IMG/VR virus record: IMGVR_UViG_3300009127_000001
Coordinates: 1 to 64,000 of that record
Reading direction: 5' to 3' (one strand)
Source: a virus
Length of the DNA: 64,000 nt
Part shown: in pieces, positions 2,925 through 49,093 of the stretch
Position numbering within the stretch: position 1 is the first letter of the stretch
How the letters are laid out: every line of letters begins with the position of its first letter
Translations under genes and position numbers: made by a program
Notes under the pieces: generated by a model
Told to the model about the DNA's origin: nothing
Database searches by the model: none
The model's input: the letters and a program-made list of their open reading frames with translations, nothing else

Positions 2925-2969
2925 GATATCACTCCTGTACATAAGGTATTGTAACTTTGAGGTGTAATT

Positions 2970-3811: not shown

Positions 3812-4072
3812 ATGCCTTGCTGTGGTGGTGGAAAAGGTAGTCCTAGAACTGTTCGACAACAAGTAGTAAATCGCCCATCTACGAAGAAGAAAAAGAGAGC
3901 GGCGATTCATAGAGTTTCTCGTAAGCCTTCTACAAGAAATGTCGAGATAAAACGACAATATGTAGTACCACGTCAAAGGTGCCCGAAATGTGGATACCCA
4001 ACGATGCTTGTTGTTATTGCTAGTCGTCAGAGAATTCAATGTGCTAACGTGAACTGCAAGCATATCTCATAA
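3812..4072 (+). CDS. Small zinc-ribbon protein (86 aa)
   Basis: A strongly basic protein with an N-terminal MPCCGGGK, a Lys/Arg-rich middle and a C-terminal zinc ribbon with CPKCGYP and CANVNC as the two Cys pairs. Such proteins usually bind nucleic acid. It follows its shorter relative after 2 nt and probably shares its transcript. Phage small zinc ribbons often act as transcription modulators, but nothing here proves that. Confidence 0.65.
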   Translation: MPCCGGGKGSPRTVRQQVVNRPSTKKKKRAAIHRVSRKPSTRNVEIKRQYVVPRQRCPKCGYPTMLVVIASRQRIQCANVNCKHIS

Positions 4073-4083
4073 GCGGTGTGGTG

Positions 4084-4116
4084 TACCCATTTTGTCAAAT
4101 ATGACAAAAAAGGGTA
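4084..4116 (+). promoter_or_regulatory. Hairpin covering the ribosome binding site of the HNH gene
   Basis: 5 bp plus 8 bp of pairing (4084-4088 with 4112-4116, and 4090-4097 with 4102-4109) around an AATA loop. The GGG of the only SD-like sequence before the ATG at 4119 is in the stem. T4 intron endonuclease genes use RBS-masking hairpins to limit early translation; here that role is inferred. Confidence 0.5.
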
Positions 4117-4118
4117 CC

Positions 4119-4655
4119 ATGGGTAAGTACGCTGATAGAAAAGCAAATAATAAATGCGTTAGATGTGGTTGTCGTGAACCCGAACATAATTCTATTTGTT
4201 GTACATATTGTAAACAAAAACGAAAAGAAGCACGGCAGCGTCGCCACTCGAAGTTAGCTGCTACTGGAACATGTCGTTGCGGTTCTACAGCACGCCCTGG
4301 AAAGACGTTATGCGAAGCATGTGCTAGTAAATATGTTGAATCTGCGGCTGAATGGCGTAAGTCAAATCCTGGGTATTATCGGAGGCGGTCACGCCAATTA
4401 TTTCTTGAGGTCTTAAATCATTATGGTGGGCCAAAATGTGCGTGTTGTGGCGAAACGAATATCTTCTTTTTAACAATCGATCATATCAACAGTGATGGTC
4501 ATAAACAACATCGAGGTGATAGGAAACGATTAGCATATTGGTTGAAGAAGAATGATTTCCCAGATGGATATCAGGTGTTATGTTTCAATTGTAATTGCGG
4601 ACGTGCTAGAAACGATGGGATTTGTCCACATAAACAGAAAGCGGAATGGTTTTAA
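4119..4655 (+). CDS. HNH homing endonuclease with N-terminal zinc motifs
   Basis: 178 residues. Several N-terminal Cys pairs (CVRCGC, CCTYC, CRCG, CEAC) form zinc ribbons for DNA binding. The HNH nuclease follows: CACCGE, then TIDHINSDG with the catalytic histidine, then CFNCNCGRA. This is a free-standing mobile endonuclease of the kind common in T4-like phages. ATG 4119 is chosen because the codons upstream lie inside a hairpin; TTG 4092 and ATG 4101 are alternatives. The stop overlaps the next start (TAATG). The last, partial gene of the window belongs to the same broad family. Confidence 0.85.
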   Translation: MGKYADRKANNKCVRCGCREPEHNSICCTYCKQKRKEARQRRHSKLAATGTCRCGSTARPGKTLCEACASKYVESAAEWRKSNPGYYRRRSRQLFLEVLNHYGGPKCACCGETNIFFLTIDHINSDGHKQHRGDRKRLAYWLKKNDFPDGYQVLCFNCNCGRARNDGICPHKQKAEWF

Positions 4656-5149
4656 TGTCCTTTGAACAATTGCTATTTGTAATAGTTCAATATATTCTGC
4701 TGGGTCTAGCTAGTGAAGCTCTAGCAGAATTAATAGTGGATTCTAAGTTCTCCGCTAAGTTCTTTAGGGATCCGTGGAAAAAATGGACATACCCTATTGA
4801 TAAACCACCACCCGATACATATTTTCAAAGATTTAAAGTGTTTGTAGATGAACTATGGAGTTGTGGTTATTGTACTAGTGTATGGACTTCGGGCTTTCTA
4901 GCTTTATTTGTATCATTAGATGGGCCGCGTGCTCTAGTCAATAATGTTTTGGTATGCTGGTTAATTTCTACTTTAATCATACATAGGATTTCAAATTGGA
5001 CACATGCTATTTTTGAGATAGTAAGGCGTGGTCGCGTACGTACCCATGATTTATTAGTTAGAGTGTCGGAGCAGGAAGATGCTGGAATTGGATATGGCGA
5101 GGGAGAGGGAAATGAGGAAGTTGGGGCCGGAGATCCTAAAACCGGCTGA
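4655..5149 (+). CDS. Membrane protein of DUF1360-like type
   Basis: 164 residues with an N-terminal hydrophobic segment (about 5-25), a central CGYCTSVW motif, a second hydrophobic stretch (about 85-115) and a polar Gly/Glu-rich tail. Small phage and bacterial membrane proteins of the DUF1360 type share the C-x-x-C-x-x-x-W motif between transmembrane helices. Role unknown. The start is coupled to the HNH gene by TAATG. The tail overlaps the next gene in another frame, and its low-complexity composition fits a region whose sequence is constrained by that second frame. Confidence 0.65.
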   Translation: MSFEQLLFVIVQYILLGLASEALAELIVDSKFSAKFFRDPWKKWTYPIDKPPPDTYFQRFKVFVDELWSCGYCTSVWTSGFLALFVSLDGPRALVNNVLVCWLISTLIIHRISNWTHAIFEIVRRGRVRTHDLLVRVSEQEDAGIGYGEGEGNEEVGAGDPKTG

Positions 5150-5892: not shown

Positions 5893-6469
5893 ATTAAAGT
5901 TACCAGAGCTATTAAAGTACCCTGAATTACTCCCATTCGATTCCGCGCCTATAAAAGATATATTCTGTTACGTTATAAGACATTATGGTAATGCTGGTCT
6001 ATCGGCGTTGATATATAGGCAACCACAGAAAGATCAGGTTGTTATAATATGCGGGGATTGGCTCGGTAATAAGATAGACATAGTATCTGATAAGCCTACT
6101 ACATTAGTCACGCATGCTAACGAACTGGTTAAAGACAGGATTATGGTGCTATATGAAACGATGCGCTTAATCAAATTAGATCAAGCACAATTCTTCTTTG
6201 CCATTGTTGATGGTGAGCTTATATTAGTAGACATCCAAGTTGGGATAAATAAGTTTGCATCTCCTGGAATGCTTAGAGATGTTTTCAGCAAAGTTTTTCC
6301 AACACAAGAAGTACAAAAGATCGAGATTCTTGACGATCGTGCTATGGAGTATATTGAATATGGATCTGGTTCATACAGTGGTGATTTAATACTGAAACCA
6401 AGCAGATTTAGAATGCATAGTGTGACACCAGATAATTTTGTGCCATTATATGTTGAAGTGAAGAGGTAG
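5813..6469 (+). CDS. Unknown protein (218 aa)
   Basis: AAAGG lies about 10 nt before the ATG. The first 27 residues overlap the previous gene. The mature part is alpha/beta (for example DIFCYVIRHYGNAGLSALIY and AQFFFAIVDGELILVDIQ). No family recognised. It ends 2 nt before the large glycosyltransferase and probably belongs to the same transcript. Confidence 0.6.
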   Translation: MSKPPQMESSRFSSTKRPKMRTSGTSKLKLPELLKYPELLPFDSAPIKDIFCYVIRHYGNAGLSALIYRQPQKDQVVIICGDWLGNKIDIVSDKPTTLVTHANELVKDRIMVLYETMRLIKLDQAQFFFAIVDGELILVDIQVGINKFASPGMLRDVFSKVFPTQEVQKIEILDDRAMEYIEYGSGSYSGDLILKPSRFRMHSVTPDNFVPLYVEVKR

Positions 6470-6471
6470 GC

Positions 6472-8433
6472 ATGCCCGAATATATTAATCACAATAATTA
6501 TGCAGTTCATCTTATAGGCCCCGATGGCAAGGAGATTATTCTGCGACCACGCCAGAAAAGAGTGCTGGGTGAATATTTTGAACGATATAGGACTAGAGGA
6601 TTTATAAAACTCGTAAATGAATCAACACCAAATAAACGTATGAAACAACCGCAGTCCTTGATTAGAAATAAAGTGATATTAGGTAAGACAAAGACTAGGA
6701 GGCAAGAGAAGAAAGAGACTCCAGATCAATCTCAGTTGCAGGAAGAAAGAAGTAAACTACAAGAACGTAAAAAAGCCCGGCAAGAAGCACGGAAAGCAGT
6801 TAGAGTATCAAGAGCTCGTAGTATAATTAGACAAGAGAGGGCTGCACCGCGACAAAGGAAGAGATCAAAAGTCGTCGGTAGAAGAGTAAATGTAGATGCA
6901 AATAGATTGCTTCAATCCAATTTAAAGAACAATATCTTCCCAATAAGTAATAATATAGGAATTGGAATACTATCATATAATAGAGCAGATTGTTTAAAGA
7001 GATTAGTAAATTCAATTCTCACCAATACTGATTTGTCTAAAACTACCCTCTTTATCAGCGATGACGCTAGTACTGATAAACCAACCGTACAATATCTGAA
7101 TGATTTATCAAGCAATCATAATATTGTGGTTATTAAGAATTCAGAGAGGTTAGGTATAGCTGGCAATAGTAATAGATTGATACGGTGCTTGTCGAGATTT
7201 GCTTACGGTATGATTCTAAATGATGATGTTGAAGTTTTAAGAAAGGGCTGGGACACTTTATACCATGACGCTATGATAGAGACAGGTATGCACCATTTCT
7301 CTTACAGACAGGTTGGTGTGTATGGTGCTGGCGAAGGCAAATTGCAGAAAAGAGGTAACCTAAATCTGCGAGTAGTGGATGAAAAGCCACATGGTGCAGT
7401 ATTGGCTTTCTCGAGGGAAATGCTTGTTAAATGTGGTTATTTTGATGAAGCATATGGTCTATATGGAATGGAACATGTAGATTGGTCTCAGAAGGCATGG
7501 GAATTTGAATTACAAAATCCAGGATTTTGGGATGTCGATGGGTCAGAACTTTATTTCAAGATCCATAAAGATACTTCTGCTATGGAAGATAGAAGTACAC
7601 ATCTCAGAGAAGGAAGGAAGATATTTGCTAAAAGAACTTATAGGAGGATAGGTCCAACAGAAAGATCTAGATTGCCGGAAATATCTTATGTAATACCATT
7701 TAGAAATACCGGCAGAGAAAAGTGCATCTTAGCCGCTGTCAATAATATAAGAGCACAACGATATCCTGTTGTTCATATTATAGTTGTTGAACAAGATGCC
7801 AATACCAAGATAAATCTCGATAACTTCAATCCTGTTACTTATTGCCACGTTACCGCCCAGAATCCGTTATTTAATAAGTCATTAGCTTTTAACACAGGTG
7901 TATCGAAGGTGATTACACCGACTGTGGTGTTACATGATGCTGATCTGCTTGTTCAGGGAAATTATACAAGATCTGTTGCTCGTATCTTGGAAGATCGTGA
8001 ATCATGCCACCTTGGTAGTACTGTTGTTTATGCCGACAAGCAATCAACAGATCGTATATGTGATTTAGGAAAAGTGGATGATGATATAAATTGTGATAGA
8101 GTTGTTGGATATTTTGAAGGTGGATCAGTAGGGTGTACTATTCAGGCATATTGGAGAGTTGGTGCATTTTGCCAAGACTATTGGGGTTACGGATGTGAGG
8201 ACTGTGATTTCTACGCTAGGTTATCTGGAGCTAGTGATTGGAAAGAGGATAGGATTTTCGATTTCTTGCATTTGTGGCATGGTCGTGTACCATACTGGAA
8301 TGAGCATCATGAGACTAATAAAATCAAAGAGAAAAATCTCGTTGTATTAGGGATTGAGAAAAGAGTCAAAATGCAACATAAACGTTTGGTTGAACAGGGC
8401 TGGGGCAATTTATTAAAGAGGCATGCGAAATGA
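6472..8433 (+). CDS. Two-domain glycosyltransferase (GT2-type tandem)
   Basis: 653 residues. A basic, Arg/Lys-rich N-terminal region (about 60-140, helical or coiled coil) precedes two GT-A domains. Domain 1 (about 160-390) opens with GIGILSYNRADCLKRL, has DD at 197-198 and NDDVEVL near 249. Domain 2 (about 400-640) opens with ISYVIPFRN, has the metal-binding HDADLL at about 489 and WGYGCEDCDFYARL at about 571-584, the signature of galactosyltransferase-type C-terminal regions. It probably adds two sugars in sequence. Neighbouring GT, sulfotransferase and nucleotide-sugar genes point to a phage-made glycan. The stop overlaps the next start (ATGA). Confidence 0.85.
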   Translation: MPEYINHNNYAVHLIGPDGKEIILRPRQKRVLGEYFERYRTRGFIKLVNESTPNKRMKQPQSLIRNKVILGKTKTRRQEKKETPDQSQLQEERSKLQERKKARQEARKAVRVSRARSIIRQERAAPRQRKRSKVVGRRVNVDANRLLQSNLKNNIFPISNNIGIGILSYNRADCLKRLVNSILTNTDLSKTTLFISDDASTDKPTVQYLNDLSSNHNIVVIKNSERLGIAGNSNRLIRCLSRFAYGMILNDDVEVLRKGWDTLYHDAMIETGMHHFSYRQVGVYGAGEGKLQKRGNLNLRVVDEKPHGAVLAFSREMLVKCGYFDEAYGLYGMEHVDWSQKAWEFELQNPGFWDVDGSELYFKIHKDTSAMEDRSTHLREGRKIFAKRTYRRIGPTERSRLPEISYVIPFRNTGREKCILAAVNNIRAQRYPVVHIIVVEQDANTKINLDNFNPVTYCHVTAQNPLFNKSLAFNTGVSKVITPTVVLHDADLLVQGNYTRSVARILEDRESCHLGSTVVYADKQSTDRICDLGKVDDDINCDRVVGYFEGGSVGCTIQAYWRVGAFCQDYWGYGCEDCDFYARLSGASDWKEDRIFDFLHLWHGRVPYWNEHHETNKIKEKNLVVLGIEKRVKMQHKRLVEQGWGNLLKRHAK

Positions 8434-8681
8434 AAAGTGGTGATATCGTCAAATTCCGGCTACTAGATGACGATGGTAAGTTGAATAGCAGTGATGCTGC
8501 TAGATTCTGTGCTAAGTATCAGATAACTGGCGTGGTGGTTTCTACACCAACAGATCATGGTCAAGGCCTAGGGCGTTTTGTGGTTGATGCGTGCCTTGGT
8601 TACACGATTTATGCGGTCCCAGAAGAACTAAATATTGTTGTTACTAGAGAACAAATCCCAACTATTGTAGATGGTGAGTAA
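8430..8681 (+). CDS. Small unknown protein between glycosyltransferases (83 aa)
   Basis: Starts with ATGA overlap to the two-domain glycosyltransferase and ends 1 nt into the next glycosyltransferase, so it is translationally coupled to both. The sequence is a small beta-type domain (KSGDIVKFRLLDDDGKL, then GVVVSTPTDHGQGLGRFVV). No known motif. Its place suggests an accessory role in the same glycan pathway. Confidence 0.6.
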   Translation: MKSGDIVKFRLLDDDGKLNSSDAARFCAKYQITGVVVSTPTDHGQGLGRFVVDACLGYTIYAVPEELNIVVTREQIPTIVDGE

Positions 8682-9628
8682 TGAGAGTCCTTATATGTCA
8701 CAGGCCTGGTGGTGCTTTTGGTTATATTTCAGATGGCTGGATCAATGCTCTTCGTGATAAAGGGCATGAAGTTCGCCGATGGAATAATGATAGGGCTAGC
8801 TGGGATGATTTTAACCCAGATATTTATATGGGTTGTTCTGGCCACAAGCAAGAAATACCAAGAAACAGGCGTGCGAAGATAGCTATCCATGTCAATCCAT
8901 GGGGTCCTAGCACTATCGATGGGGTATCAGAATCAACAGATGCTATTAATTGGGTGCGTAAACAAAAGCCCGATGTAGTATTCGGTTACGGATATGATTC
9001 TGATAGGATTCTATGGTCTTATTGGTCACAGAAAGCCGGAATTACTTGGGTGCCTATGCCCACAGCTGGTGATAAGGTTATATATAAATTACTAGACGGG
9101 GAAAGAAAATTCGACGTCGTCTATCTTGGTGGTATCTGGCCATATAAGGCTATTACAATAACTGAATGCTTGATGCCGGTGTTGCAGAATGGCAAGATAA
9201 CACATAAACTGCACGGTTGGGGCGATTGGCCAGATGGTATTTCTAGCGGTGCTATAGCCGATGATAAAGTATGTGCGTTCTTCAATAGTGGCAAGGTGGG
9301 ACCTTGTATATCGGAGCAGCATACAAGAAGTTTTGGTATTGATCTACCTGAAAGAGCTTTCAAAGTAGCACTATGTGGTGCTTTGGCGGTACATGATGCA
9401 GTACCAAGATTGGATAGGATTATCGAAGGTATAGTAATCGCTACTACTCCCGAAGAGTATCTTGAAAGATGTGTTTATTATAGTCGCCCTGAGAATGAGG
9501 AGGAGCGGTTTCTTCTTGCTACTAAACAAAGAGATTCTGTCTTACAACACCATACATACCACCATCGGATGAGCACCATGTTTACTGCACTTGGTTTTGA
9601 GGAGGAAGCTGAGAAGATAATAGAGTAG
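8681..9628 (+). CDS. Glycosyltransferase, CgeB-like GT-B family
   Basis: 315 residues. The C-terminal half has the typical GT-B arrangement of CgeB/GT4-like enzymes: FDVVYLGGIWPYK (about 145-157), FGIDLPERAFKVALCGALAVHD (about 218-239), and HHTYHHRMSTMF near the end. It is expected to use a nucleotide-sugar donor, with GDP-mannose-derived sugars a possible donor because a GDP-mannose dehydratase is encoded in this window. Located directly after the small coupled gene. Confidence 0.8.
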   Translation: MRVLICHRPGGAFGYISDGWINALRDKGHEVRRWNNDRASWDDFNPDIYMGCSGHKQEIPRNRRAKIAIHVNPWGPSTIDGVSESTDAINWVRKQKPDVVFGYGYDSDRILWSYWSQKAGITWVPMPTAGDKVIYKLLDGERKFDVVYLGGIWPYKAITITECLMPVLQNGKITHKLHGWGDWPDGISSGAIADDKVCAFFNSGKVGPCISEQHTRSFGIDLPERAFKVALCGALAVHDAVPRLDRIIEGIVIATTPEEYLERCVYYSRPENEEERFLLATKQRDSVLQHHTYHHRMSTMFTALGFEEEAEKIIE

Positions 9629-9635
9629 GTGTATC

Positions 9636-9818
9636 ATGGATGACGTTTTTGAATTGTTTCGGAACCGATTAGACGAGATTACCGAATATAAATGGGGTAG
9701 TGTGGAGAATGATGACCAAGCCATCAAAGTTTTTGGGCATAAGATCGAGGATGGTGAGGATGTCCTTGATGCAATAGCTAGGCATATGGTAGAGGCTTTG
9801 ACAAGAAGGACTTCGTAA
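9636..9818 (+). CDS. Small unknown protein (60 aa)
   Basis: An acidic, helical small protein with ATG 8 nt after the glycosyltransferase gene. It ends in TAATG, so it is coupled to the sulfotransferase that follows. No recognisable family. Confidence 0.55.
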   Translation: MDDVFELFRNRLDEITEYKWGSVENDDQAIKVFGHKIEDGEDVLDAIARHMVEALTRRTS

Positions 9819-10480
9819 TGGCTTTGATGGGCGAGTGTTCTGATGGACGGACATGGATATTTCTTCATATCCCTAAGACTGGAGGATCGTGGTTCCGTGA
9901 GGCTATTAAGCTGGCTACCGGTAAACCATACTCACATGTTGGGCAACAACACTCGCATTTTCCAGAACTAGCTAATCATATTAATCCGGACACTATTAAA
10001 TCCGCTTATTATTTTGCTTTTGTTAGGCATCCGATTACGTGGTATCAATCTAGATGGGCATTTAGGGTTAAGCATGGGTGGCATATGAGCCATCCGATAG
10101 ATAGAAATTGCTCATCTAATGATTTTCGGGAGTGGGTCGATAATCTATTGATTCATAAACCCGGTTGGGTATCAACTTTATATAAGGTCTATATTGAGAG
10201 AGTACCATCAGGAGAAATCAACGTTGGTACTATGGAGAACTTGGTAACTGATGCTACTAATATATTACAGAATGCCGGTGTAGAATTCGATGAGCAGAAA
10301 TTTATAGATGCTGGGAGAATAAACGATTCGTCTATGGGCGAGATGTCATCTAAGCAACTTGCAAAGTATACCCCAGAATTGTTACAGCGTGTATTAGATG
10401 CTGAGAAATATGCAATCGATCTATATTATCCTGATACTGAGATAGATTTTGATGAGTTTTGTGGGGAGCAACCATATTGA
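9818..10480 (+). CDS. Sulfotransferase family protein (second)
   Basis: 220 residues. The PAPS-binding loop is IPKTGGS (18-24) and the 3'-phosphate segment FVRHPITWYQSRW (68-80), both excellent matches to carbohydrate sulfotransferases. It is not a close copy of the gene at 1552-2352; the loop and spacing differ. It is flanked by coupled small genes and lies directly after two glycosyltransferases. The acceptor may be the glycan built by them. Confidence 0.85.
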   Translation: MALMGECSDGRTWIFLHIPKTGGSWFREAIKLATGKPYSHVGQQHSHFPELANHINPDTIKSAYYFAFVRHPITWYQSRWAFRVKHGWHMSHPIDRNCSSNDFREWVDNLLIHKPGWVSTLYKVYIERVPSGEINVGTMENLVTDATNILQNAGVEFDEQKFIDAGRINDSSMGEMSSKQLAKYTPELLQRVLDAEKYAIDLYYPDTEIDFDEFCGEQPY

Positions 10481-10797
10481 TTGCTGATCTTGTGATCGAT
10501 ATCTTACGAAGTATGAAATTGCCGGTGCGCAAAGAGGCATCGGATATAGTTAAATCAGAAGTCACAGATGGTCTTGGTAGATGGCGAAAATTAATATTTA
10601 TTATAGAGGATGACTATTTATACGCGGTGTATCTTGGTAAAGATGAAGGAATAATGATCAGTAATCCAGATGCTGATGTTCTACATTTTATAAGTTCTGC
10701 TGTGAAGACCATACGGGAGTGTACAGATAAGCCACATTGCGGTTATTATGACAAAATAAACCCTGCACGAATTCTTGACTTGATTGTTGATGATTGA
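10477..10797 (+). CDS. Unknown protein (106 aa), probable TTG start
   Basis: The best start is the TTG at 10477, overlapping the sulfotransferase stop (TTGA), because GGGGAG lies about 9 nt upstream. An upstream TTG at 10459 has no binding site. The protein is alpha/beta, with KLIFIIEDDYLYAVYLGKD in the middle. No family recognised. It overlaps the macro-domain gene by 8 nt. Confidence 0.55.
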   Translation: MIADLVIDILRSMKLPVRKEASDIVKSEVTDGLGRWRKLIFIIEDDYLYAVYLGKDEGIMISNPDADVLHFISSAVKTIRECTDKPHCGYYDKINPARILDLIVDD

Positions 10798-11251
10798 GAG
10801 AGTTGGTAACATCTGGAACTTCCACGACAGAAGGAAGTGGATCGTCATTACTACCAACATCGGTTGGAAGAAAGACGGTTCTAATCCTATGGGTGCTGGT
10901 ATAGCCAGAGCTGCTGCTGGGATAGATCCAGATCTACCTATATGGTATGGTAAGAAATGCCAAAAATTCGGTGCTAATACAGCAACACTACCATACAGGA
11001 AAAAGAAATTTATATTATTTCCTACTAAACCACTAGATGAGGATAAACCCTGGTTGTCTTGGCAACAGGACTCGGATATCGATTTGATACGTAGATCTAC
11101 TATTCAATTAGCTAGGTTAATAGATATATTAGAGGCCGATATGATTGTTCTACCGATGGTGGGATGTGCTAATGGTAGATTGCGACCTAAACAAGTGCTG
11201 CCCGTATTGAGACAATATCTAGACGATAGGTTTGTTTTAGTGACTCAGTAA
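10790..11251 (+). CDS. Macro-domain protein (ADP-ribose-binding type)
   Basis: 153 residues. The ADP-ribose loop is seen as NIGWKKDGSNPMGAGIARAA (23-42), and a second conserved block LPMVGCANGRLRPKQVLPVL lies at about 123-142, as in phage macro domains of the Appr-1''-P processing type. Such proteins bind or hydrolyse ADP-ribose derivatives. In a phage this may serve NAD recycling or counter host defences that use ADP-ribose signals; that is inference. The start is ATG 10790, 8 nt inside the previous gene. Confidence 0.75.
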   Translation: MIERVGNIWNFHDRRKWIVITTNIGWKKDGSNPMGAGIARAAAGIDPDLPIWYGKKCQKFGANTATLPYRKKKFILFPTKPLDEDKPWLSWQQDSDIDLIRRSTIQLARLIDILEADMIVLPMVGCANGRLRPKQVLPVLRQYLDDRFVLVTQ

Positions 11252-11475
11252 CCAATAAAGGTGATGAGATTCTTTCTCTGTAGTTGTTCCAATTGACCTA
11301 TGTCAATTCTTTGTGTCTCGATAACTAGTTCTGCACCTGGCGCTATCGATAATTGCTCGGCACGGGTGGGATCAATATCCGATGTTGCAGCCGCTTTATC
11401 GAGGTCGATAGCGTTCAGCAAGATAGGTATTGTCTGGGTTGAAATATTGGTGATGGTAGTTACCCGTGTAGCCAT
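11245..11475 (-). CDS. Small beta-rich protein (76 aa), paralogue of the gene at 37998
   Basis: AAGGAG lies 8 nt before the ATG. It contains NISTQTIPI, then SIAPGAELV, then IGQLEQLQRKNLITFI. The pattern TQxIP ... (I/L)APG ... (I)xxLQxR/KxxI is shared with the small gene just upstream of the tail sheath gene (37998-38255). The two are probably homologues, and the other copy sits in the tail cluster, so a virion role is possible. Convergent 7-nt overlap with the macro-domain gene. Confidence 0.65.
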   Translation of the reverse strand: MATRVTTITNISTQTIPILLNAIDLDKAAATSDIDPTRAEQLSIAPGAELVIETQRIDIGQLEQLQRKNLITFIGY

Positions 11476-11502
11476 GATTCATTCTCCTTTACTGTAATTT
11501 TG

Positions 11503-12348
11503 ATGATGCCTATATTTTCTGTTATTACTTGTATCTCTGAGCCGGACATTTATCAAGAATGCTTGCTTGATTCAATAGACCGGTGCCGTGGTAATTTTGA
11601 CGTAGAAATTATTCCCGTACTAAATGATAGTGGGTTATATTCAGCTAGCCTTGCTCTAAATTTAGGAATTAAGGTTGCAAGATCAGATAATCTGGTTATT
11701 GCTCACCAAGATATTACACTCGTAGAGGATTGGTTTGCGATAGCGGAAGAGACATTGGGGAAATTGGATAAAGATTGGGGAATACTTGGTGCTGCTGGGA
11801 TAGATCTTAATAGGGAGAGGCGAGATATAGGGCCATGGGGTGGTGCAGTATTATTGGATACTGTGGCGGTAGGTAGTGTCTGGCATACAGATGATGTTGA
11901 TTCGGAACCATATTGGGATGGTTTAAAGTCGCCGACAAGAGTTCATTGTGTTGATGAATGCTTATTTATTCTTAATAAGAAAACAGGACTGCGGTTTGAT
12001 ACGATGTTTAATGGGTTCCATTTTTATGGGGCCGATATGTGTTTGCAGGCGAGGGCGGCTGGATTTGGTGTGTATGCGGCAGACTTACCTATAATTCATT
12101 ATGGGGCATATTCATCTAGTATGGCTGGCAGGAGTCGATATTGGCAATTCTTTAGATTATTACATAATAAATGGAAATCGCGTTTCCCAGAGATGCTTGG
12201 CACACATATGCACTGGTGTGATAATGAGTTAACTAGTTATGTTTCGGCTGAACTTGAAGCAGATGATGGTAATAATATTCATGTGAAATCATTTGGAATA
12301 AAAGAAGCACGCTTGTCTATAGATAAGAAAATGGGATTTATTGAATGA
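11503..12348 (+). CDS. Glycosyltransferase-like protein (GT2 type)
   Basis: 281 residues. It begins PIFSVITCISEPDIYQECLLDSI, has ASLALNLGIKVARSDNLVIAHQDITLVEDWF (DxD-like HQD region, about 47-78) and later FNGFHFYGADMCLQARAAGFGVYAADLPIIHYG (about 165-200), the pattern of GT2 enzymes with the downstream acceptor-side region. ATG 11503 or 11506 are equally possible; neither has a clear ribosome binding site. Divergent from the small gene with only 27 nt between starts. The stop overlaps the next ATG (ATGA). Confidence 0.7.
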   Translation: MMPIFSVITCISEPDIYQECLLDSIDRCRGNFDVEIIPVLNDSGLYSASLALNLGIKVARSDNLVIAHQDITLVEDWFAIAEETLGKLDKDWGILGAAGIDLNRERRDIGPWGGAVLLDTVAVGSVWHTDDVDSEPYWDGLKSPTRVHCVDECLFILNKKTGLRFDTMFNGFHFYGADMCLQARAAGFGVYAADLPIIHYGAYSSSMAGRSRYWQFFRLLHNKWKSRFPEMLGTHMHWCDNELTSYVSAELEADDGNNIHVKSFGIKEARLSIDKKMGFIE

Positions 12349-12638
12349 GATATTATAGACTAGATAAAAATCCAGAACCATTAGAACATAATGGGCAAAA
12401 GGTTATATATTTTTTGATATTATTTCCAGAGGGAGTTGGAATAGATGAAGCTAATGCTCCTGTTGTTGGAACAGAGACTGATTTAAGCAATGATTTTTCA
12501 CTGCGACTGGAGGGTATGACAGGTGGTGTGAAACTTCATTTTGACGGTAAAGTATATGAATATAGAAGCCACTTATATCAGAAGAGTGATGGGACAAAAC
12601 CTGGTAGATTACTTATAGAAACTGAGATGGGATTCTAG
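12345..12638 (+). CDS. Unknown protein (97 aa)
   Basis: Coupled to the glycosyltransferase by ATGA. The protein looks like a single beta-sandwich domain (VIYFLILFPEGVGID, VKLHFDGKVYEYRSHLY). No family recognised. Its last 4 nt overlap the end of a small minus-strand gene. Confidence 0.55.
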   Translation: MRYYRLDKNPEPLEHNGQKVIYFLILFPEGVGIDEANAPVVGTETDLSNDFSLRLEGMTGGVKLHFDGKVYEYRSHLYQKSDGTKPGRLLIETEMGF

Positions 12639-16986: not shown

Positions 16987-18240
16987 ATGGAACGATTCAG
17001 CGATTTACCAAACCAGATTGGCTCTCTTCTATATCATATATTAAAATGGATATTTGGGTTTATTAGTGAGAATGCTATACCGTTATTGTTCTGTATGATA
17101 TTCATGCTTATCCTAGTGATAAGTGCTTCACATTATCGTGATTATATTAGTACCAGAAAGATAGATGTTCTTGTTGGTCCTAGTGGTGGATCTACAGAAG
17201 CGTTAGTACATGAGATCTCAGAATATATGGAAACTCAATCAGCTTCACCATGGAAATTCTGGGTGACACAATATATTTTGGACCCAATAGGCACTGATGG
17301 TTACGAAGAAAATCGAGAAAGTGTTAGTAAGGACAATACTGGTAGAGTTATTGGATTTACACATGATGGTTTCGGCGAGTCAAAGCATATCAGAATTCTA
17401 TTACCATTAGATCGTAATTGTTTACATATCTTGGTGACTAGAGACTTTCTGACTAGAAATACGATTGGTACCTCTAATAACACGATATTGTTTAAAGACA
17501 TTGCTCCGAAGCTAGAACATGGTAGGATATTTCTCGGGCCATATGATAGTGGTACCCGTAGATGTGCTGAATATGTGCTAGAACATTACGGTCTTAATCC
17601 AGGACAACATTCTGCTCATGGTATTGCTGATTGGCATGAAATGCGATCGGCATTACATAGAGGGTTTGTTGATGTAGCATTTTATGGTGGTCCACAACAT
17701 GCCCCGATAATAGAGAGCATTGTTAAGGATGACACATGTCGCTTAGTTGGTTTAGATAATGATCGTGATGCGATAATTAGAAGTTATGAACAATTATTAC
17801 CTGATACATTTGAAGCTAATTCTTATGTTCATGGTGATTTCTGTCCAACAAAGATCGATGTATTTGGTTCACGCCGTGTCCTAGTATGCTCTTCTGCTAT
17901 GAGTGATAGAGATGCATTTTACTTAGCCGGTGTATGCCAACGAGCTCTTCAACATAGAATCCCGGAGATACAGTGGGCCAACGTTCCTAATAAACCCGAG
18001 GAAGGAGAATTGAAATATCCACTACATCCTGCGGCGGTATTGATCAGGGATGGTGGTAAACCGTCTGAATGGCCAGAAAGTGTATATTATGCACTTATGA
18101 CAGCTGGTCTGTGGTGTGTCTATGCTTTTGTTCGATGGTTGAATAAGCTTATTGGGAAACGGAGTAATGGGGAGGATGTGAATACAGAAACGAGAAGGGC
18201 GAGGAGGAGAAGGAAAAGGGAAGCCCAATCTACCGAATGA
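16987..18240 (+). CDS. Membrane-anchored TAXI-type solute-binding protein
   Basis: 417 residues. An N-terminal transmembrane helix (about 27-49), a periplasmic-type binding domain (about 56-370), a second transmembrane helix (about 375-395) and a very basic cytoplasmic tail. Blocks typical of TAXI-family TRAP substrate-binding proteins are IDVLVGPSGGSTEALVHEIS, GRIFLGPYDSGTRRCAEYVL, GFVDVAFYGGPQHAPIIESI and LKYPLHPAAVLIRDGG. Cellular members feed a TRAP transporter or act as ligand sensors. No transporter gene is near, and the double-membrane topology suggests tethering on the host inner membrane with the domain outside. The ligand is unknown. Confidence 0.7.
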   Translation: MERFSDLPNQIGSLLYHILKWIFGFISENAIPLLFCMIFMLILVISASHYRDYISTRKIDVLVGPSGGSTEALVHEISEYMETQSASPWKFWVTQYILDPIGTDGYEENRESVSKDNTGRVIGFTHDGFGESKHIRILLPLDRNCLHILVTRDFLTRNTIGTSNNTILFKDIAPKLEHGRIFLGPYDSGTRRCAEYVLEHYGLNPGQHSAHGIADWHEMRSALHRGFVDVAFYGGPQHAPIIESIVKDDTCRLVGLDNDRDAIIRSYEQLLPDTFEANSYVHGDFCPTKIDVFGSRRVLVCSSAMSDRDAFYLAGVCQRALQHRIPEIQWANVPNKPEEGELKYPLHPAAVLIRDGGKPSEWPESVYYALMTAGLWCVYAFVRWLNKLIGKRSNGEDVNTETRRARRRRKREAQSTE

Positions 18241-23407: not shown

Positions 23408-23437
23408 ATGGCCCGGCGAGGTTGCTCGTCGGGCCAT
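23408..23437 (+). terminator. Intrinsic terminator-like hairpin
   Basis: 13 bp pair 23408-23420 with 23425-23437 around a GTTG loop, with one G-U pair. It follows the GC-rich gene after 41 nt and precedes the next gene by 14 nt. The sequence TTCTAT follows, a weak U-tract. Confidence 0.7.
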
Positions 23438-23451
23438 TTCTATGTATAAAT

Positions 23452-23886
23452 ATGGTGGTATTATTTGTCTATATCGTTTTATTAGTGATCATACTCCGTC
23501 TGATGGGCAGAGCATGGTACGCTCCTCATTTAAACAGCGGCGGAATAGTCGATTTTTATACATGGTCTCATTTCCTTCACGGAGTGATTTTTAGCCTTAT
23601 AGGTTTACCATGGGTAATAGCTCTCGGAGCTGAATTTGTATGGGAGATAATTGAAAATACGCAATATATTATTAAGAAATATAGAAGGAAAGGCCATCCA
23701 ACGTATGCTGGTGATGCTATAGTAAATTCTATATCTGATTTAGTGATATGCTCTCTAGGATGGATATTCGCAACAAATGTACCATTCTATTGGAGTATTA
23801 TAGCGATCATCGTTATCGAAACGGCACTATACATATTTATTAGAGATAACCTATTATTAAACATTATTGCTCTTATTAGAAAATAG
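23452..23886 (+). CDS. DUF2585-like membrane protein
   Basis: 144 residues with about four hydrophobic segments. The blocks MGRAWYAPHL, NSGGIVDFYTWSHFLHG, EFVWEIIENTQYII and GDAIVNSISDLV followed by IRDNLLLNIIALI match the conserved layout of the DUF2585 (UPF0314) membrane family. The biochemical role of that family is not known. ATG 23452 has a poor binding site and a very short leader after the upstream hairpin. Confidence 0.75.
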   Translation: MVVLFVYIVLLVIILRLMGRAWYAPHLNSGGIVDFYTWSHFLHGVIFSLIGLPWVIALGAEFVWEIIENTQYIIKKYRRKGHPTYAGDAIVNSISDLVICSLGWIFATNVPFYWSIIAIIVIETALYIFIRDNLLLNIIALIRK

Positions 23887-44387: not shown

Positions 44388-44437
44388 TCTGCATCACCAC
44401 ACATCAAAGATATTATAGCTTTTAGGGAGTGTGTGGT

Positions 44438-45304
44438 ATGACATGTGCACAGCTTACTGGTGCGTATCCACGAATCTCTGCCAGAAGAGGCAGTGTGGTT
44501 GATCTAAACGTGGATTTCCGAAAGAATGGGGTATTAACTGATCCATACGCTATCAGGCAAATTGAGATCTATAAGTCATCGGTGGTTCCACATAATTTGG
44601 TGGCTACTGTGCCTGTTGTTGATCTCGATGATCCTCTATACCCATCTCCAATTTGTCGCCATGAGATAGCTTCTGAAGCTGGCGACTGCTGCACAGAGCC
44701 ATCAGAGGATGATACACCGGTAGCTGGCAGATATCACCTTCCCTATGCTATTTCAGAGGACTTTGAAGTACCTGATGTCTATTTTGATGTTTGGTACTAT
44801 TTCGCCGATAATCCTTGTGGAGCGTTAGGTACGGATGCTACAGATTGTGATATGGATGAGGACACCTATGACCCATTGTTATTAAGGTGTTGTCATCGGT
44901 TTTGGGTTTATCCAGAAGAATGGTTTTGCGACGATCGGTTACAGACTATTCGGTTTGGTTTTGAACCACTAGATCAGAAATTTCATACACCTGAGGCGAG
45001 GCCTCTTGAGGTTGGGCTTATGCCTTTGCCTTTGTATGATTATAATTTCAATCTTGTTAATCCTATCATTCCATTTTTGCAGCCGACTATCACGATAGAA
45101 ACTCAGCACAATGAATTGCTTGCCGATGCTGAGGCATGTAGGATTGGTATCAGACAAGGATCGTATAGGTCAAATCCGTGGGTAGTCCAGTATGATCTCA
45201 ACACGTCTCGTTTTTTAAAGGGGACATATAGGTATTACATCACTTTGACGCTGCCGAATGGTTCGACTAGGGTGAGCAGGAAATTTGTTCTTACGATATC
45301 ATGA
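44438..45304 (+). CDS. Cys-rich structural-type protein (288 aa)
   Basis: Begins with CAQLTGAYPRISARRGSVVDLNVDF and is beta-rich throughout, with 12 or so cysteines in the middle (CRHE, GDCCTEP, LRCCHRF). It ends with PNGSTRVSRKFVLTI, an Ig-like strand pattern. GGGAG precedes the ATG. Likely a tail or fibre component. No family recognised. Confidence 0.55.
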   Translation: MTCAQLTGAYPRISARRGSVVDLNVDFRKNGVLTDPYAIRQIEIYKSSVVPHNLVATVPVVDLDDPLYPSPICRHEIASEAGDCCTEPSEDDTPVAGRYHLPYAISEDFEVPDVYFDVWYYFADNPCGALGTDATDCDMDEDTYDPLLLRCCHRFWVYPEEWFCDDRLQTIRFGFEPLDQKFHTPEARPLEVGLMPLPLYDYNFNLVNPIIPFLQPTITIETQHNELLADAEACRIGIRQGSYRSNPWVVQYDLNTSRFLKGTYRYYITLTLPNGSTRVSRKFVLTIS

Positions 45305-45329: not shown

Positions 45330-45821
45330 ATGATGAAATCGATGAAGATATTGTGGGTCGAGGACTTACAAGTCGATATCGCTCTAATGCAGCGAGTATT
45401 AGAACACAATGATAAGAATAAGTTGATATCATTGGAGGTTGTTAGTACTCTACATGATGCACATGGACGTGAAAGACATGCAGATTTGATTTTGTTAGAT
45501 CTGAATCTGCCAGATTCAACACCTAAACAAACTATTGAATATATTAGATATAGACGACATAAAAGTCCCCCTGTTGTCGTCTTTTCAGGTAGTGAAGAGC
45601 TTGAGTTAATTCTGGAAGCTAATAATGCAGGAGCATTGACATACCTATGGAAGGGTCAAGGGAATATGCAATTTATAGGAAATGCCCTTATTGTTCAAGC
45701 TTATCTGTTGCTGAAGGAGAGGAAAATTAGGTTTTGGAGGTGTGTGTTCTTTTGGTGTATCATACTTAGTTTGTTTGGGCTTTTCGTGTATGGTTTGTGC
45801 CTTCATGCTTGTGTAGGATAA
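45330..45821 (+). CDS. Response-regulator receiver domain with a C-terminal membrane helix
   Basis: 163 residues. Receiver motifs are complete: E11-D12 acidic pair (WVEDLQ), phospho-acceptor D57 in LILLDLNLP, S86 in VFSGSEE and K108 in YLWKGQ. There is no DNA-binding or enzyme output domain; instead a single hydrophobic helix (about 136-157) ends the protein, so the receiver is probably tethered to the membrane. AGGAG precedes the ATG. It is followed by a small membrane protein and a Cache/GAF/PAS sensor, forming a signalling cluster. Confidence 0.85.
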   Translation: MMKSMKILWVEDLQVDIALMQRVLEHNDKNKLISLEVVSTLHDAHGRERHADLILLDLNLPDSTPKQTIEYIRYRRHKSPPVVVFSGSEELELILEANNAGALTYLWKGQGNMQFIGNALIVQAYLLLKERKIRFWRCVFFWCIILSLFGLFVYGLCLHACVG

Positions 45822-45824
45822 TTT

Positions 45825-45856
45825 ATGACTGGGTTAACTTATGACTGGGTTAACTT
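45825..45856 (+). repeat. 16-nt tandem duplication
   Basis: The unit ATGACTGGGTTAACTT occurs twice in direct succession, then ATGG begins the next gene at 45857. Each unit starts with ATG, so three ATGs are spaced 16 nt apart in three different frames. Only the third opens the long frame. Confidence 0.9.
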
Positions 45857-46207
45857 ATGGTGTGGACTCTTACTCATATACTAGTCTTCATGTCGGCCTT
45901 CGGCGTCGCAGCTCTTGGAGGACTAGCAGCTTTACTGAGAGGTAAAGAAGATCTGAATCTCAGATCCGTCTTATCGTCTATCTTATATAGTGGAATCATT
46001 GGATTAATTGTTGCTTTAATGTGGTATAATTACTTTGAAGGCAAAGGAAATATACCATTTTTGTTAGCCGTGAGTGGGCTAGCTGGAATAGGTGGGGCAA
46101 CGGCACTTGATTTAATGAAGATTTTCTTTCAGGGGAAGATAAATCTCCATATTGAACCGGTTCCTGATGAGTCGGAGGAGGATGATGAGCCAAACGATGA
46201 TACGTGA
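45857..46207 (+). CDS. Small membrane protein with acidic tail (116 aa)
   Basis: Three hydrophobic segments (about 3-25, 45-63 and 67-90) and an acidic C-terminus (DESEEDDEPNDD). No family recognised. The start ATG follows a tandem duplication and has no ribosome binding site; the AGGA site lies before the first ATG of the duplication (45825), whose frame is short. It overlaps the sensor gene by 23 nt. Confidence 0.6.
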   Translation: MVWTLTHILVFMSAFGVAALGGLAALLRGKEDLNLRSVLSSILYSGIIGLIVALMWYNYFEGKGNIPFLLAVSGLAGIGGATALDLMKIFFQGKINLHIEPVPDESEEDDEPNDDT

Positions 46208-47942
46208 TGATCGTAAAAGATTTTATTTTTTACTAATAGTTATGACTTGTGTGTCATTGATTATTGGTATTGTCTCGATAGTGTTGTCGTATAATGCTGC
46301 AGTACATGAAGTTGAGCGTAGATTAGTTGAGACTTCTCGTAGCCAGGCCAGATTAATGGAGTCAATAGCTAAATTCTCTCATAGTCAAATTGAAGATCAA
46401 GATGAAGCATCTGAAGCAGCATTGACTCAAATTACTGAAGCACATCGGAGATATAATGGTTTTGGCAAAACTGGAGAATTTACATTAGCAGAACGAGAAG
46501 GTAGTGATATAGTATTTCTACTTAGTCATCGCCATACAGGTGTAGAAGATCGTAAGATCATAGCTTTAAAATCTAATTATGCTGAGCCTATGCAAATGGT
46601 TCTAAATGGTCACTCTGGTTCCATGGTAGGTCGCGATTATAGAGGTGTATATGTCCTTGCAGCATATGAACCCGTTGATATGATTTGTTGCGATCTTGGA
46701 TTAGTGGCGAAAATGGATATTGCTGAAATCAGAAGTCCTTTTATTAGGGCTGGTGTTATTGCTTCAAGTTTTGCTGTTTTGGTCATACTTGTTGGTTCTG
46801 TTGTGTTCATTCGTGCTCTTACTCCGATTTTTAAGCGGCTCCACGATAGACATGAATCGCGTAAGCGGAAGCCTGAAAACACATTACGCAAAGTATCATC
46901 TGCTATAATCATTCTTATCATTGCTTTTTTGGTTTCATTTCTTGGATATAGTTTACATGTGGCACAAGTGAATGATGTTAGGATTAGTATAACGCAAGAG
47001 AGATTAGAAGCTTCTCTTAAATTATACAGCCATGTTGGTACACATACTGAGGCGAGTTTGAAGGATTTTTGTCTAGAAGAATGTATTCGCTTGACTGGTA
47101 GTAGGTATGGTTATATAGGCTATGTTCATGAAAATGATGAAAATACGGTGACAGTAGCTGTTTGGTCTGAAAATATGCAGTTGGATTATAAGATACATAA
47201 TGATCGTGCTGAATTTGATATTGCAGAAGGTATCGCAAGGGAAGCACAATGGGCTATTCCATTTCGAACACAAAAGGCATACGTTAACAATGACTTTGGT
47301 GGCAAGCCTATGGATGAAAATGCAGAGCACCCTGCAGAGCATAAAGTAGTATTGAGCCGATATATGTCTGTACCAGTTTTTACTGAAGGGAAATGTAGAC
47401 TAATTATAGGACTTGGGAATAAGAAGAAACCGTATACGCAAGATGACGTCTTGCAAGTTACTTTCTTGATGGAAGACCTATGGCAAGTCATAACAATATA
47501 CAGGGCTAATAAGAGAGCAGATCAGTGGCGTAGAATAATTGAAATGAGTGATACAGCATATATTATTTGTGATGCTAAGAATGGTACGATTGCTATGTGG
47601 AATGATGGTGCTCAAAAATTACTTGGGTGGACAGAAGGTGAAGCTATAGGTAGAAAGCTTGACCTAATAATCCCCCCAGGAAGATTCGAGAGACACCAAA
47701 TAGGAATGACGTATCCGGATCTTCTGGAAAAATTAAATAAAGGCGGCATCATACAAGTTTCTGGCAAAATGGTCACCAAGGATGGTGAAGAAATTGACAT
47801 CAACATTCGAGTGATGTCAGTGATTAATGGTAGAAACTTATATGTCGCACAAGTGGTACTAGATGAAGAGGTAGAAATCCTACCAACTGCTGTAGATCCT
47901 AATGGAGATACTAAAGATGTTCGAACTATTCCTGATCGTTAG
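46185..47942 (+). CDS. Membrane sensor: Cache-like, GAF and PAS domains, no output domain
   Basis: 585 residues. TM1 (about 13-35), an extracytoplasmic Cache-like domain (about 36-185, with GFGKTGEFTLAER and VLAAYEPVDM), TM2 (186-208), TM3 (238-258), GAF domain (about 275-440, with ECIRLTGSRYGYIGYV and HKVVLSRYMSVPVF) and PAS domain (about 445-561, with MWNDGAQKLLGWTEGEAIG). Nothing follows the PAS domain except a short tail, so histidine kinase, cyclase or phosphodiesterase domains are absent. Start 46185 or 46197. Confidence 0.75.
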   Translation: MSQTMIRDDRKRFYFLLIVMTCVSLIIGIVSIVLSYNAAVHEVERRLVETSRSQARLMESIAKFSHSQIEDQDEASEAALTQITEAHRRYNGFGKTGEFTLAEREGSDIVFLLSHRHTGVEDRKIIALKSNYAEPMQMVLNGHSGSMVGRDYRGVYVLAAYEPVDMICCDLGLVAKMDIAEIRSPFIRAGVIASSFAVLVILVGSVVFIRALTPIFKRLHDRHESRKRKPENTLRKVSSAIIILIIAFLVSFLGYSLHVAQVNDVRISITQERLEASLKLYSHVGTHTEASLKDFCLEECIRLTGSRYGYIGYVHENDENTVTVAVWSENMQLDYKIHNDRAEFDIAEGIAREAQWAIPFRTQKAYVNNDFGGKPMDENAEHPAEHKVVLSRYMSVPVFTEGKCRLIIGLGNKKKPYTQDDVLQVTFLMEDLWQVITIYRANKRADQWRRIIEMSDTAYIICDAKNGTIAMWNDGAQKLLGWTEGEAIGRKLDLIIPPGRFERHQIGMTYPDLLEKLNKGGIIQVSGKMVTKDGEEIDINIRVMSVINGRNLYVAQVVLDEEVEILPTAVDPNGDTKDVRTIPDR

Positions 47943-47980
47943 TCTAATCATGCTAGGCACTGTCAGGGTATTTGAAATGT

Positions 47981-49093
47981 ATGCCTGACCATGCCTACAA
48001 GAAAATACCACCGAATAGAATTATCGCTTGGGTAGAGCGAAACTTCGAGTATAAAGTACGCAAAGGTGGTGCGGAATATCAAATATGCGACCCATTCGAC
48101 GGCGATACAAGATTCCGCTTCCAAATAAATCCTGATAAAGGTGTCTGCCACTCTTGGCATGGGGATGAATGGGCCGGTCCAATAAATCCTAGGACTGGTA
48201 AGCGTAATTGCTCATTTATCAGATTCGTCCGGGTCTATCGGAAATGCTCTATGAAGGATGCCCTCTCCGAGGTTCTCGGAGACACGGGGAGCGTTTCTCT
48301 TTACATGAGGCCCGAAAACCGGCCCGGTGCCTCAGAGGCCAAGAAAACCGTTTCCGTAAGCCTTCCTGGGGGCACGAGGCTACTTTGGTCGGCGGAAGAT
48401 CCTCAAGCTAATATTCTGAAGGGTTGGTTGCGGTCTAGAGGTTATACTGACGAGGGGATAGAGACTCACGAATTATACTACTTAGGGATGGATGTTTATT
48501 GGCCATACTATGAATTCGATGACTTAGTATATTGGCAAAGCCGATCGAGGATTAATAAGAGATTTGAATTCCCGGATTTATATGAATATGATAATGAAGA
48601 TAATATTACTGGGAAGATGGAGGGTGGCAGAGCAGATTATTTATATGGTTTTGATGATATTGAACCTGCTAGATATGTTATTATTACCGAATCGATATTT
48701 GATCAGAACACATTGGGAGAGCAAGTACTGGCTTCAGGAGGTGCATCACTAAGTCCTAATCAGGTCAAAAAGATTAAATTATTAGGTCCTAAGGAGAGAA
48801 TAATACTCTCGCCCGATAATGATATAGCTGGTAAAAAGAGTATTATTGAGAATCAATTATTACTACGCAATCTCAGGTTTCCAATATGGTTTAGTCTTCC
48901 TCCTTCTATACCATATAAGAAGGACGGGAAGAACATGGTAATAAAGGACTGGAACGAATGTATTACTGAATTGAAATTAACGCTGTCCGAGGTTAGACGG
49001 TTATACGATAGACAGTTGAAGAAGCTAACTGTTGATGATTTAGTTCGATTCCGATCAGAAGTTCAAGAGGCCAAAAAGAGAGATGGACGGTAA
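47981..49093 (+). CDS. DNA primase (DnaG-like, Toprim domain)
   Basis: 370 residues. N-terminal region with CHSWHGDEWAGP, a zinc-finger-like or primase N-terminal module. The Toprim core is YVIITESIFDQNTL (acidic Glu), ASGGASLS and IILSPDNDIAGKKSI with the DxD. A helical tail follows. It makes primers for lagging-strand synthesis; no helicase domain is fused. Start ATG 47981 is 38 nt after the sensor gene. Overlaps the HAD gene by 11 nt. Confidence 0.8.
   Translation: MPDHAYKKIPPNRIIAWVERNFEYKVRKGGAEYQICDPFDGDTRFRFQINPDKGVCHSWHGDEWAGPINPRTGKRNCSFIRFVRVYRKCSMKDALSEVLGDTGSVSLYMRPENRPGASEAKKTVSVSLPGGTRLLWSAEDPQANILKGWLRSRGYTDEGIETHELYYLGMDVYWPYYEFDDLVYWQSRSRINKRFEFPDLYEYDNEDNITGKMEGGRADYLYGFDDIEPARYVIITESIFDQNTLGEQVLASGGASLSPNQVKKIKLLGPKERIILSPDNDIAGKKSIIENQLLLRNLRFPIWFSLPPSIPYKKDGKNMVIKDWNECITELKLTLSEVRRLYDRQLKKLTVDDLVRFRSEVQEAKKRDGR

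Follow-up and report, generated by a model that had tools for sequence, protein, structure and literature searches.

The viral DNA considered here, hereafter the window, comprises bases 1-64000 of the 122,317-bp IMG/VR virus record IMGVR_UViG_3300009127_000001. Between positions 45,330 and 47,942 it carries a cassette of three genes encoding, in this order, a receiver domain tied to the membrane (REC-TM, gene 1), a small holin-like protein (gene 2) and a large sensor (gene 3). At somewhat less than an even chance, we favour the idea that this cassette places holin-type membrane permeabilisation, that is the timing of lysis, under sensory control. A preliminary description, made from the letters of this DNA, had suggested a decoy or a device redirecting host phosphate signalling. 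That idea lost its leading place because the middle gene is holin-like and because some related phages keep, at the same genomic position (the slot), a PAS gene and behind it the gene of a coiled-coil transmembrane (TM) protein.

The following scheme may be envisaged. As a holin, the gene 2 product would build up in the inner membrane and make holes there. The tail-anchored receiver would act as its partner, either as an antiholin or as a trigger, in a state that would be set by the transfer of phosphate to D57 from a host kinase or a small phosphodonor. Through the Cache-GAF-PAS sensor, which has no kinase, a signal from the envelope or from metabolism would reach this membrane complex as well, and lysis or depolarisation would come later or earlier according to conditions. 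In the related phages, the PAS protein and the coiled-coil TM protein would do an equivalent job. No gene of the cassette other than the holin-like one is a plausible effector, and a membrane-tied receiver with no obvious way to reach DNA is counted in favour of holin control. Moreover, according to one source (PMC7182436), antiholins act on holins in the membrane, in the periplasm or in the cytoplasm, and their genes often lie close to that of the holin; both properties are counted in favour of the receiver as a holin partner.

The three genes of the cassette

REC-TM matches the Pfam model Response_reg (PF00072) with an E-value of 6.2e-11 and 42.9 bits, above the cut-off of 30.2, and its best matches among solved structures are LuxO, KdpE and other receivers. 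The acidic pair E11/D12, D57, S86 and K108 are all present; we take them to play the roles that they have in receivers, with D57 as the phospho-acceptor and S86 as the Ser/Thr residue. Only 7 residues follow the TM helix, and no output domain, neither DNA-binding nor enzymatic, was found in the protein. Gene 1 would therefore encode a tail-anchored receiver facing the cytoplasm. The intact receiver (D57, S86, K108) ending in a membrane helix that had been read from the letters is thus borne out by the profile match, by the residues and by the helix at amino acids (aa) 138-156. Response_reg occurs in 2 of the 28 records that hold the 291-aa gene bordering the cassette, or a homologue of it; both matches are the REC-TM gene itself, seen in the two overlapping records of the window phage (G000 and G001, see below).

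The gene 2 product shows three TM segments by hydropathy (aa 8-26, 37-55 and 66-84), with a weak N-out/C-in charge pattern. Three helices are also seen in its AlphaFold model, computed from the single sequence, with a moderate predicted local distance difference test (pLDDT) score of 67. The protein matches two PHROG holin families (PHROG 6384 and 785, at 2.5e-6 and 7.7e-6). When the model was compared with BFVD, 12 of the first 20 viral structures were named holin or LydA, 2 were uncharacterised and 6 nameless; the probabilities of these matches were 0.93-1.00 and the best E-value 3.9e-3, none being below 1e-3. Over the same 28 records, the Pfam holin model finds gene 2 only, in its two records. 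Judging from PHROGs and the structure search, with a Pfam match below its cut-off, gene 2 may be called holin-like, of the LydA or holin superfamily III type. The earlier view of a small membrane protein with an acidic tail holds as regards the three helices and the tail, which has 11 aspartate or glutamate residues; the holin likeness had been missed. The tail was rejected as a functional hint, since the stretch that encodes it also contains GGAGGAGG and the start codons of gene 3.

Ahead of the holin-like ORF (open reading frame), the tandem duplication of ATGACTGGGTTAACTT results in ATGs at 45825, 45841 and 45857, each in another frame. The first two open ORFs of 19 and 34 codons, and only ATG 45857 opens the holin-like frame; ATG 45825 sits 6 bases 3' of AGGA. 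Such a triple-ATG arrangement could throttle holin synthesis.

The ORF of gene 3 opens at TTG 46152. ATG 46185 is probably the start, because GGAGGAGG stands directly upstream of it. Between the first two TM segments lies a Cache-like region that resembles Salinivibrio chemotaxis receptors (MCP; tblastn, 3e-5), no Pfam Cache model matching gene 3. The loop between TM2 and TM3 has 10 lysine or arginine residues among its 27 aa. The best solved match of the PAS domain is FixL (1.3e-5), and H515 of gene 3 (numbered from TTG 46152) aligns with a FixL histidine which we take to be the heme ligand; this serves as a lead only. Since the best solved PAS matches are the FixL oxygen sensors, the signal could for instance be oxygen or redox state. 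For the sensor, the AlphaFold model is uninformative (pLDDT 38).

No kinase, cyclase, phosphatase or other output domain was found in gene 3 by Pfam, PHROGs or NCBIfam, and a hidden kinase in the sensor was rejected on these searches. The arrangement proposed in the preliminary description, a sensor with TM, Cache-like, GAF and PAS domains and neither kinase nor cyclase, is thereby confirmed, save that the Cache part is suggested by its similarity to MCP and not by Pfam; the hidden output domain against which that description had cautioned was not found by any of the three collections. Its further claim that the set has no catalytic part agrees with the profile searches, by which no histidine kinase was detected in either record of the window phage. 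HATPase_c has no match above its cut-off in 28 records (two lie below), and HisKA has none in 11 records, G000 and G001 included; HATPase_c_2 matches in 1 of 11 records, neither G000 nor G001 being concerned. The records searched are possibly incomplete. A HATPase_c match at G001:186026 was rejected as a histidine kinase: it reaches 19.9 bits, below the cut-off, in a 538-aa protein that by eye looks GHKL- and metallopeptidase-like.

Two further observations touch on these protein families. The same clade includes L137, a jumbo phage of 408 kb, in which positions 4048-4971 (-) encode a TM-Cache-like-TM-PAS protein that has no kinase; a coiled-coil protein of 91 aa comes next, and an ORF of 1304 aa lies alongside. 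The Cache-like region of this PAS protein has the DYRG motif in common with that of gene 3 (33% over 42 aa, 7e-4 for a single comparison). The L137 protein is a second kinase-less sensor in the jumbo clade and is counted in favour of sensory control of the holin. Separately, the locus L008 encodes at 7162-7572 (-) an RsbW-like stand-alone HATPase_c_2 protein (5.5e-26), beside a channel gene; such a gene is also cut at the end of record G005.

The phage carrying the cassette

The cassette belongs to a jumbo myophage. The window phage is represented by two overlapping records, G000 and G001. The second, IMGVR_UViG_3300013120_000738 (227,725 bp), shows no difference from the first in the stretches compared (two mutually overlapping loci of 13.8 and 12.5 kb), and the jumbo size follows from this identical match with a 227,725-bp record. 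If the overlap runs to the record end, the two records, which are unassembled, would together span about 294 kb. The neighbourhood encodes a tail sheath-like protein and a T4-type baseplate protein, recognised by Pfam and PHROGs, as well as tube-like proteins recognised by eye. The three ORFs stand in order on one strand, their frames being open across 2.6 kb, and their codon usage and GC content at third codon positions (GC3) fall inside the range of 14 other window genes. Host contamination or an artefact is unlikely in view of the second identical record, of the syntenic flanks in relatives and of the codon usage; the prophage or host contamination considered in the preliminary description is disfavoured by the same three lines of evidence. 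Coordinates are given in Table 1.

Table 1. Features of the cassette and of its borders (window coordinates)
Feature	Position	Strand	Description	Basis
Left border of the slot	44429..45304	+	conserved 291-aa gene	7 relatives share 63-71% identity; neither Pfam nor PHROGs gives a family
REC-TM (gene 1)	45330..45821	+	163 aa, receiver and single C-terminal TM helix	Pfam, hydropathy, AGGAG upstream
Receiver domain	45348..45659	+	aa 7-110	PF00072, 43.4 bits (genome-record profile search)
TM helix of REC-TM	45741..45797	+	aa 138-156	hydropathy, mean 2.37 over 19 residues
16-bp tandem duplication	45825..45856	+	ATGACTGGGTTAACTT twice	sequence, translations
Holin-like protein (gene 2)	45857..46207	+	116 aa, three TM helices, acidic C-terminal tail	Pfam, PHROGs, structure search, TM count
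Sensor (gene 3)	46185..47942	+	TM1 - Cache-like - TM2 - basic loop - TM3 - GAF - PAS - 34-aa tail	Pfam, hydropathy
Cache-like region	46287..46754	+	between TM1 and TM2	tblastn, DYRG motif
GAF domain	47043..47492	+		GAF_2, 4.5e-12
PAS domain	47523..47837	+		Pfam PAS, 3.6e-9; PF00989, 40.6 bits
Right border of the slot	47972..49093	+	primase-like (Toprim) gene	PHROG DNA primase, 2.4e-26

The same three-gene order in other phages, for which the preliminary description had suggested a search, was looked for and not found. Comparison of the genes, one by one, with viral contigs brought up no phage other than the window phage itself, in its overlapping record, and tblastn of the three proteins in 50,697 phage records gave no match. 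In plasmids, tblastn showed similarity at the level of the PAS or Cache parts only.

The slot in related phages

Using the baseplate gene and the 291-aa gene, 78 viral loci were gathered, one of which is the window phage. Among the 77 others, several of which lie on contigs that are near copies of one another, the primase gene is found downstream of the slot in 63. By script count, in 18 of the 77 loci (14 distinct TM proteins) the slot carries a PAS gene and, after it, the gene of a coiled-coil protein whose single TM helix is C-terminal; a PAS gene stands near the contig end in 3 further loci. Thus, the cassette sits where some relatives keep a sensor and a small membrane protein. Taken together with the holin-like middle gene, this means that the recurring association is with a small membrane protein.

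The PAS models used for the slot and adjacency counts were built from the same loci and their E-values are not independent; Pfam PAS provides the independent check. Of the relatives' PAS proteins (15 distinct ones in alignment A2), three were tested singly against Pfam PAS and all three matched. At the level of records, Pfam PAS was found in 8 of the 9 clade records holding the TM gene.

Other genes were noted in the same region. About 1.7 kb after the PAS/TM pair, L008 encodes at 6264-7154 (+) a K+-channel-like protein (Ion_trans 2.6e-24, Ion_trans_2 8.8e-12), with a TVGYGD filter seen by eye; it is also present in L007. In L043, at about 8570-12391 (+), at least three repeated ORFs separate the coiled-coil TM gene from the primase gene and share, near their starts, MKLCQILT.TLTE.IDYTNIPPEI.

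The PAS/TM pair outside the jumbo clade

The coiled-coil TM proteins (14 distinct in alignment A3) have a conserved N-terminal motif, W-x-E-Y-[KR]-[KR]-L-V-L. This motif was found in 31 distinct TM proteins; it misses L037, which has the variant EYRKLVL. Two truncated proteins were dropped from the count: that of L143 is a cut copy of the L141 protein, and that of L159 is preceded, as judged by eye, by a PAS-like gene. Of the remaining 29 distinct complete proteins, 19 (13 in the jumbo clade and 6 outside) are encoded no more than 400 bp from a PAS gene of the same strand. Over 38 records, the independent Pfam model gives 20 PAS matches in 18 records: 17 lie beside the TM gene (15 above the cut-off, those in G033 and G034 being below), 2 are the window sensor in its overlapping records and 1, in L137, stands alone. 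The places of the matches were compared by hand and, 10 of the 38 records having been picked for holding the TM gene, they show where PAS lies in such phages and not how frequent PAS is in phages. In bacterial and archaeal genomes, one scan for the TM family yielded 4 pattern matches, none of them confirmed.

The TM family has weak matches to XhlA and holin profiles, which are counted in favour of the lysis reading. Two of the 14 members match Pfam XhlA (PF10779; best 0.018) and 7 of the 14 match the PHROG hemolysin family phrog_1193 (best 4.2e-5); both results are weak, coiled coils matching loosely. One TM protein outside the clade has a weak match to a PHROG holin (0.0017).

The wider surroundings of the pair were examined in four non-jumbo contigs (L138, L139, L140 and L141). 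In three of them a same-strand endolysin lies 3.2-4.4 kb from the pair, namely a protein with GH108 (1.6e-12) and M15_4 (1.7e-9) domains in L138, a Phage_lysozyme protein (3e-20) in L141 and, in L140, a member of the endolysin family phrog_181 (1.2e-43) with no Pfam match. In L139, at 10616-11460 (-), two tandem PAS genes precede the coiled-coil TM gene; downstream come a small TM protein and one that is lipoprotein-like, with only marginal spanin matches (0.07).

Strengths and weaknesses of the lysis-timing proposal

Several observations weigh against sensory control of a holin. With respect to the cassette itself, gene 2 reaches only 5.2e-5 and 23.7 bits against Phage_holin_3_3 (LydA, PF16083), below the cut-off of 28.4. 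In the sensor, the three TM segments and the positive-inside rule, as applied by simple hydropathy and charge, place GAF-PAS outside the cytoplasm, an unusual position from which these domains would be unable to touch the receiver. Physical contact among the cassette proteins is itself a proposal. Only one phage is known to have the exact trio, and the sensor of L137 has no holin-like neighbour. At the slot, 28 of the 77 loci are essentially empty (100 bp or less between the border genes) and another 28 hold other genes or are cut; the function is therefore dispensable or placed elsewhere.

The coiled-coil TM family raises further difficulties. The neighbour of the TM gene in G004 has no Pfam PAS match, and 10 of the 29 proteins counted above have no PAS neighbour. 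The commonest PHROG match of the family is phrog_2990, to which no function is assigned (9 of 14 members, best 6.4e-7). Besides, several of its genes stand among head or terminase genes (an annotated terminase in L134, head genes recognised by eye in L129 and L177), so that a lysis role of the family cannot be taken for granted. As for the endolysins, none was recognised in L139, nor beside the window cassette, where 8 proteins were searched by profile and others by eye. Four endolysin families were found in none of 12 jumbo-clade records, SLT, CHAP, NlpC/P60, Amidase_3 and GH108 being outside that search. In L141, an opposite-strand transposase-like ORF separates the lysozyme from the pair. 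In T4, holin and endolysin genes stand apart, and a missing endolysin neighbour is for this reason not decisive.

A wider form of the proposal would be that a PAS protein, or a Cache-GAF-PAS protein with a phospho-receiver, gates an adjacent holin-type protein, that the pair recurs across unrelated tailed phages, and that the jumbo version is kinase-less and wired to host phosphate. So extended, the proposal is rather doubtful.

Alternative explanations

Among the other explanations, diversion of host signalling comes first, and we regard it as unlikely. According to it, the receiver would take phosphate away from host kinases, which the sensor, itself without a kinase, would poison by forming mixed dimers. 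The intact catalytic residues of the receiver and the two phage records in which no kinase was detected are consistent with such a role, and a phage protein acting on host two-component systems has been described, as far as the available text goes (PMC10714779). The membrane anchor of the receiver and the interposed holin-like gene would however be left unexplained. Neither would it be understood why relatives, in which no receiver was detected (28 records searched, those of the window phage included), keep a lone PAS protein and a small TM protein at the slot. Also against it, the sensor is devoid of a recognised HisKA domain for dimerisation and phosphotransfer.

It may also be imagined that the cassette guards the inner membrane, in superinfection exclusion or in response to envelope stress. 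The small TM protein would then alter permeability and block phages or ions, with no lysis involved. All three proteins are predicted in the membrane, and the K+-channel-like protein of L008 lies in the same region of a relative. The holin similarity, together with the endolysins near the pair in three of the four non-jumbo contigs, fits lysis better, and such a guard function appears improbable.

To the same low degree, the cassette could be host-derived cargo, made of sensor and receiver fragments that were picked up, have little function and happen to lie near an ordinary holin. The occurrence of the exact trio in one phage and the many loci with an empty slot would fit this origin. Against it, the receiver residues are kept, the frames are open over 2.6 kb, codon usage lies in the range of the window, and other signalling genes recur at the same slot.

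Finally, a virion or assembly role, in which the small TM and PAS proteins would be late structural proteins whose sensor domains bind a cofactor merely as a scaffold, is very unlikely: the slot does lie among baseplate and tail genes and some coiled-coil TM genes by head or terminase genes, but in virion parts one would not expect an intact receiver, membrane helices or sensory domains of the Cache-like, GAF and PAS kinds.

Other genes of the window

Some window genes away from the cassette may be mentioned. Positions 2349-3047 (-) encode a permuted papain-like amidase of family C92 (YaeF/YiiX; 3.3e-15), possibly an envelope hydrolase. A 417-aa protein encoded at 16987-18240 (+) has an NMT1_3 solute-receptor-like domain (9.7e-7) and, by eye, an N-terminal TM helix, which is odd for a phage. 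A sulfotransferase (1552-2352, -; 2.4e-11) and a glycosyltransferase-like protein (8681-9628, +; 1.6e-14) have, by eye, more sugar-related genes nearby. Two small proteins, membrane-like by eye, belong to DUF2585 (23422-23886, +; 6.2e-26) and DUF1360 (4646-5149, +; 4.5e-6).

Comparison with known systems

If sensory control of a holin were true, phages would gain a general and testable means to make the time of lysis depend on oxygen, on metabolism or on the state of the envelope, and sensory domains would have in the holin an output of a new kind. As a gene pair found repeatedly, PAS and coiled-coil TM proteins offer small, expressible test systems. In literature searched as full text, most subscription journals being outside the coverage, no description was found of such a pair, nor of a phage receiver beside a holin. 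The "receiver domain" that figures in the available text of a paper on N4 lysis (PMC12642591) names a region of the pinholin and not a phospho-receiver.

With two-component systems, the window phage shares the receiver residues and the usual sensory domains; it differs from them in having no HisKA, no HATPase above cut-off and no output domain, and in that its receiver is tail-anchored. Jumbo phages are known to encode cREC, a divergent receiver-like domain that, according to the available text of PMC7824862, is never found in histidine kinase systems and is linked to enzymes of nicotinamide adenine dinucleotide (NAD) or ADP-ribose. In contrast, the window receiver matches the classical Response_reg model, and no NAD gene was recognised among the immediate neighbours scanned.

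On the side of lysis proteins, gene 2 is similar to LydA and holin superfamily III in size and in its three TM helices, and profiles and predicted structure suggest a likeness as well. It departs from LydA by its score below the Pfam cut-off, by the lack of a recognised endolysin beside it and by an acidic tail whose coding stretch includes the ribosome-binding site of gene 3. XhlA proteins combine a coiled coil with a TM helix. The small TM protein of the relatives resembles this type (PF10779, PHROG 1193/937) in topology, with weak profile matches, whereas it has its own W-x-E-Y-[KR]-[KR]-L-V-L motif and a PAS partner.

Few phages have been analysed in depth for the lysis inhibition that superinfection brings about; according to PMC7182436, earlier studies of it had been confined to T-even coliphages. 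In T4 (holin T, antiholins RI and RIII) and in ICP1 (TeaA/ArrA), dedicated phage proteins regulate the holin and read superinfection, as far as the texts available extend (PMC7182436, PMC8385771). The comparison with RI and RIII of T4 and with ArrA of ICP1 is an analogy, and the putative regulators of the window phage would be of another make, a phospho-receiver together with a Cache-like/GAF/PAS sensor.

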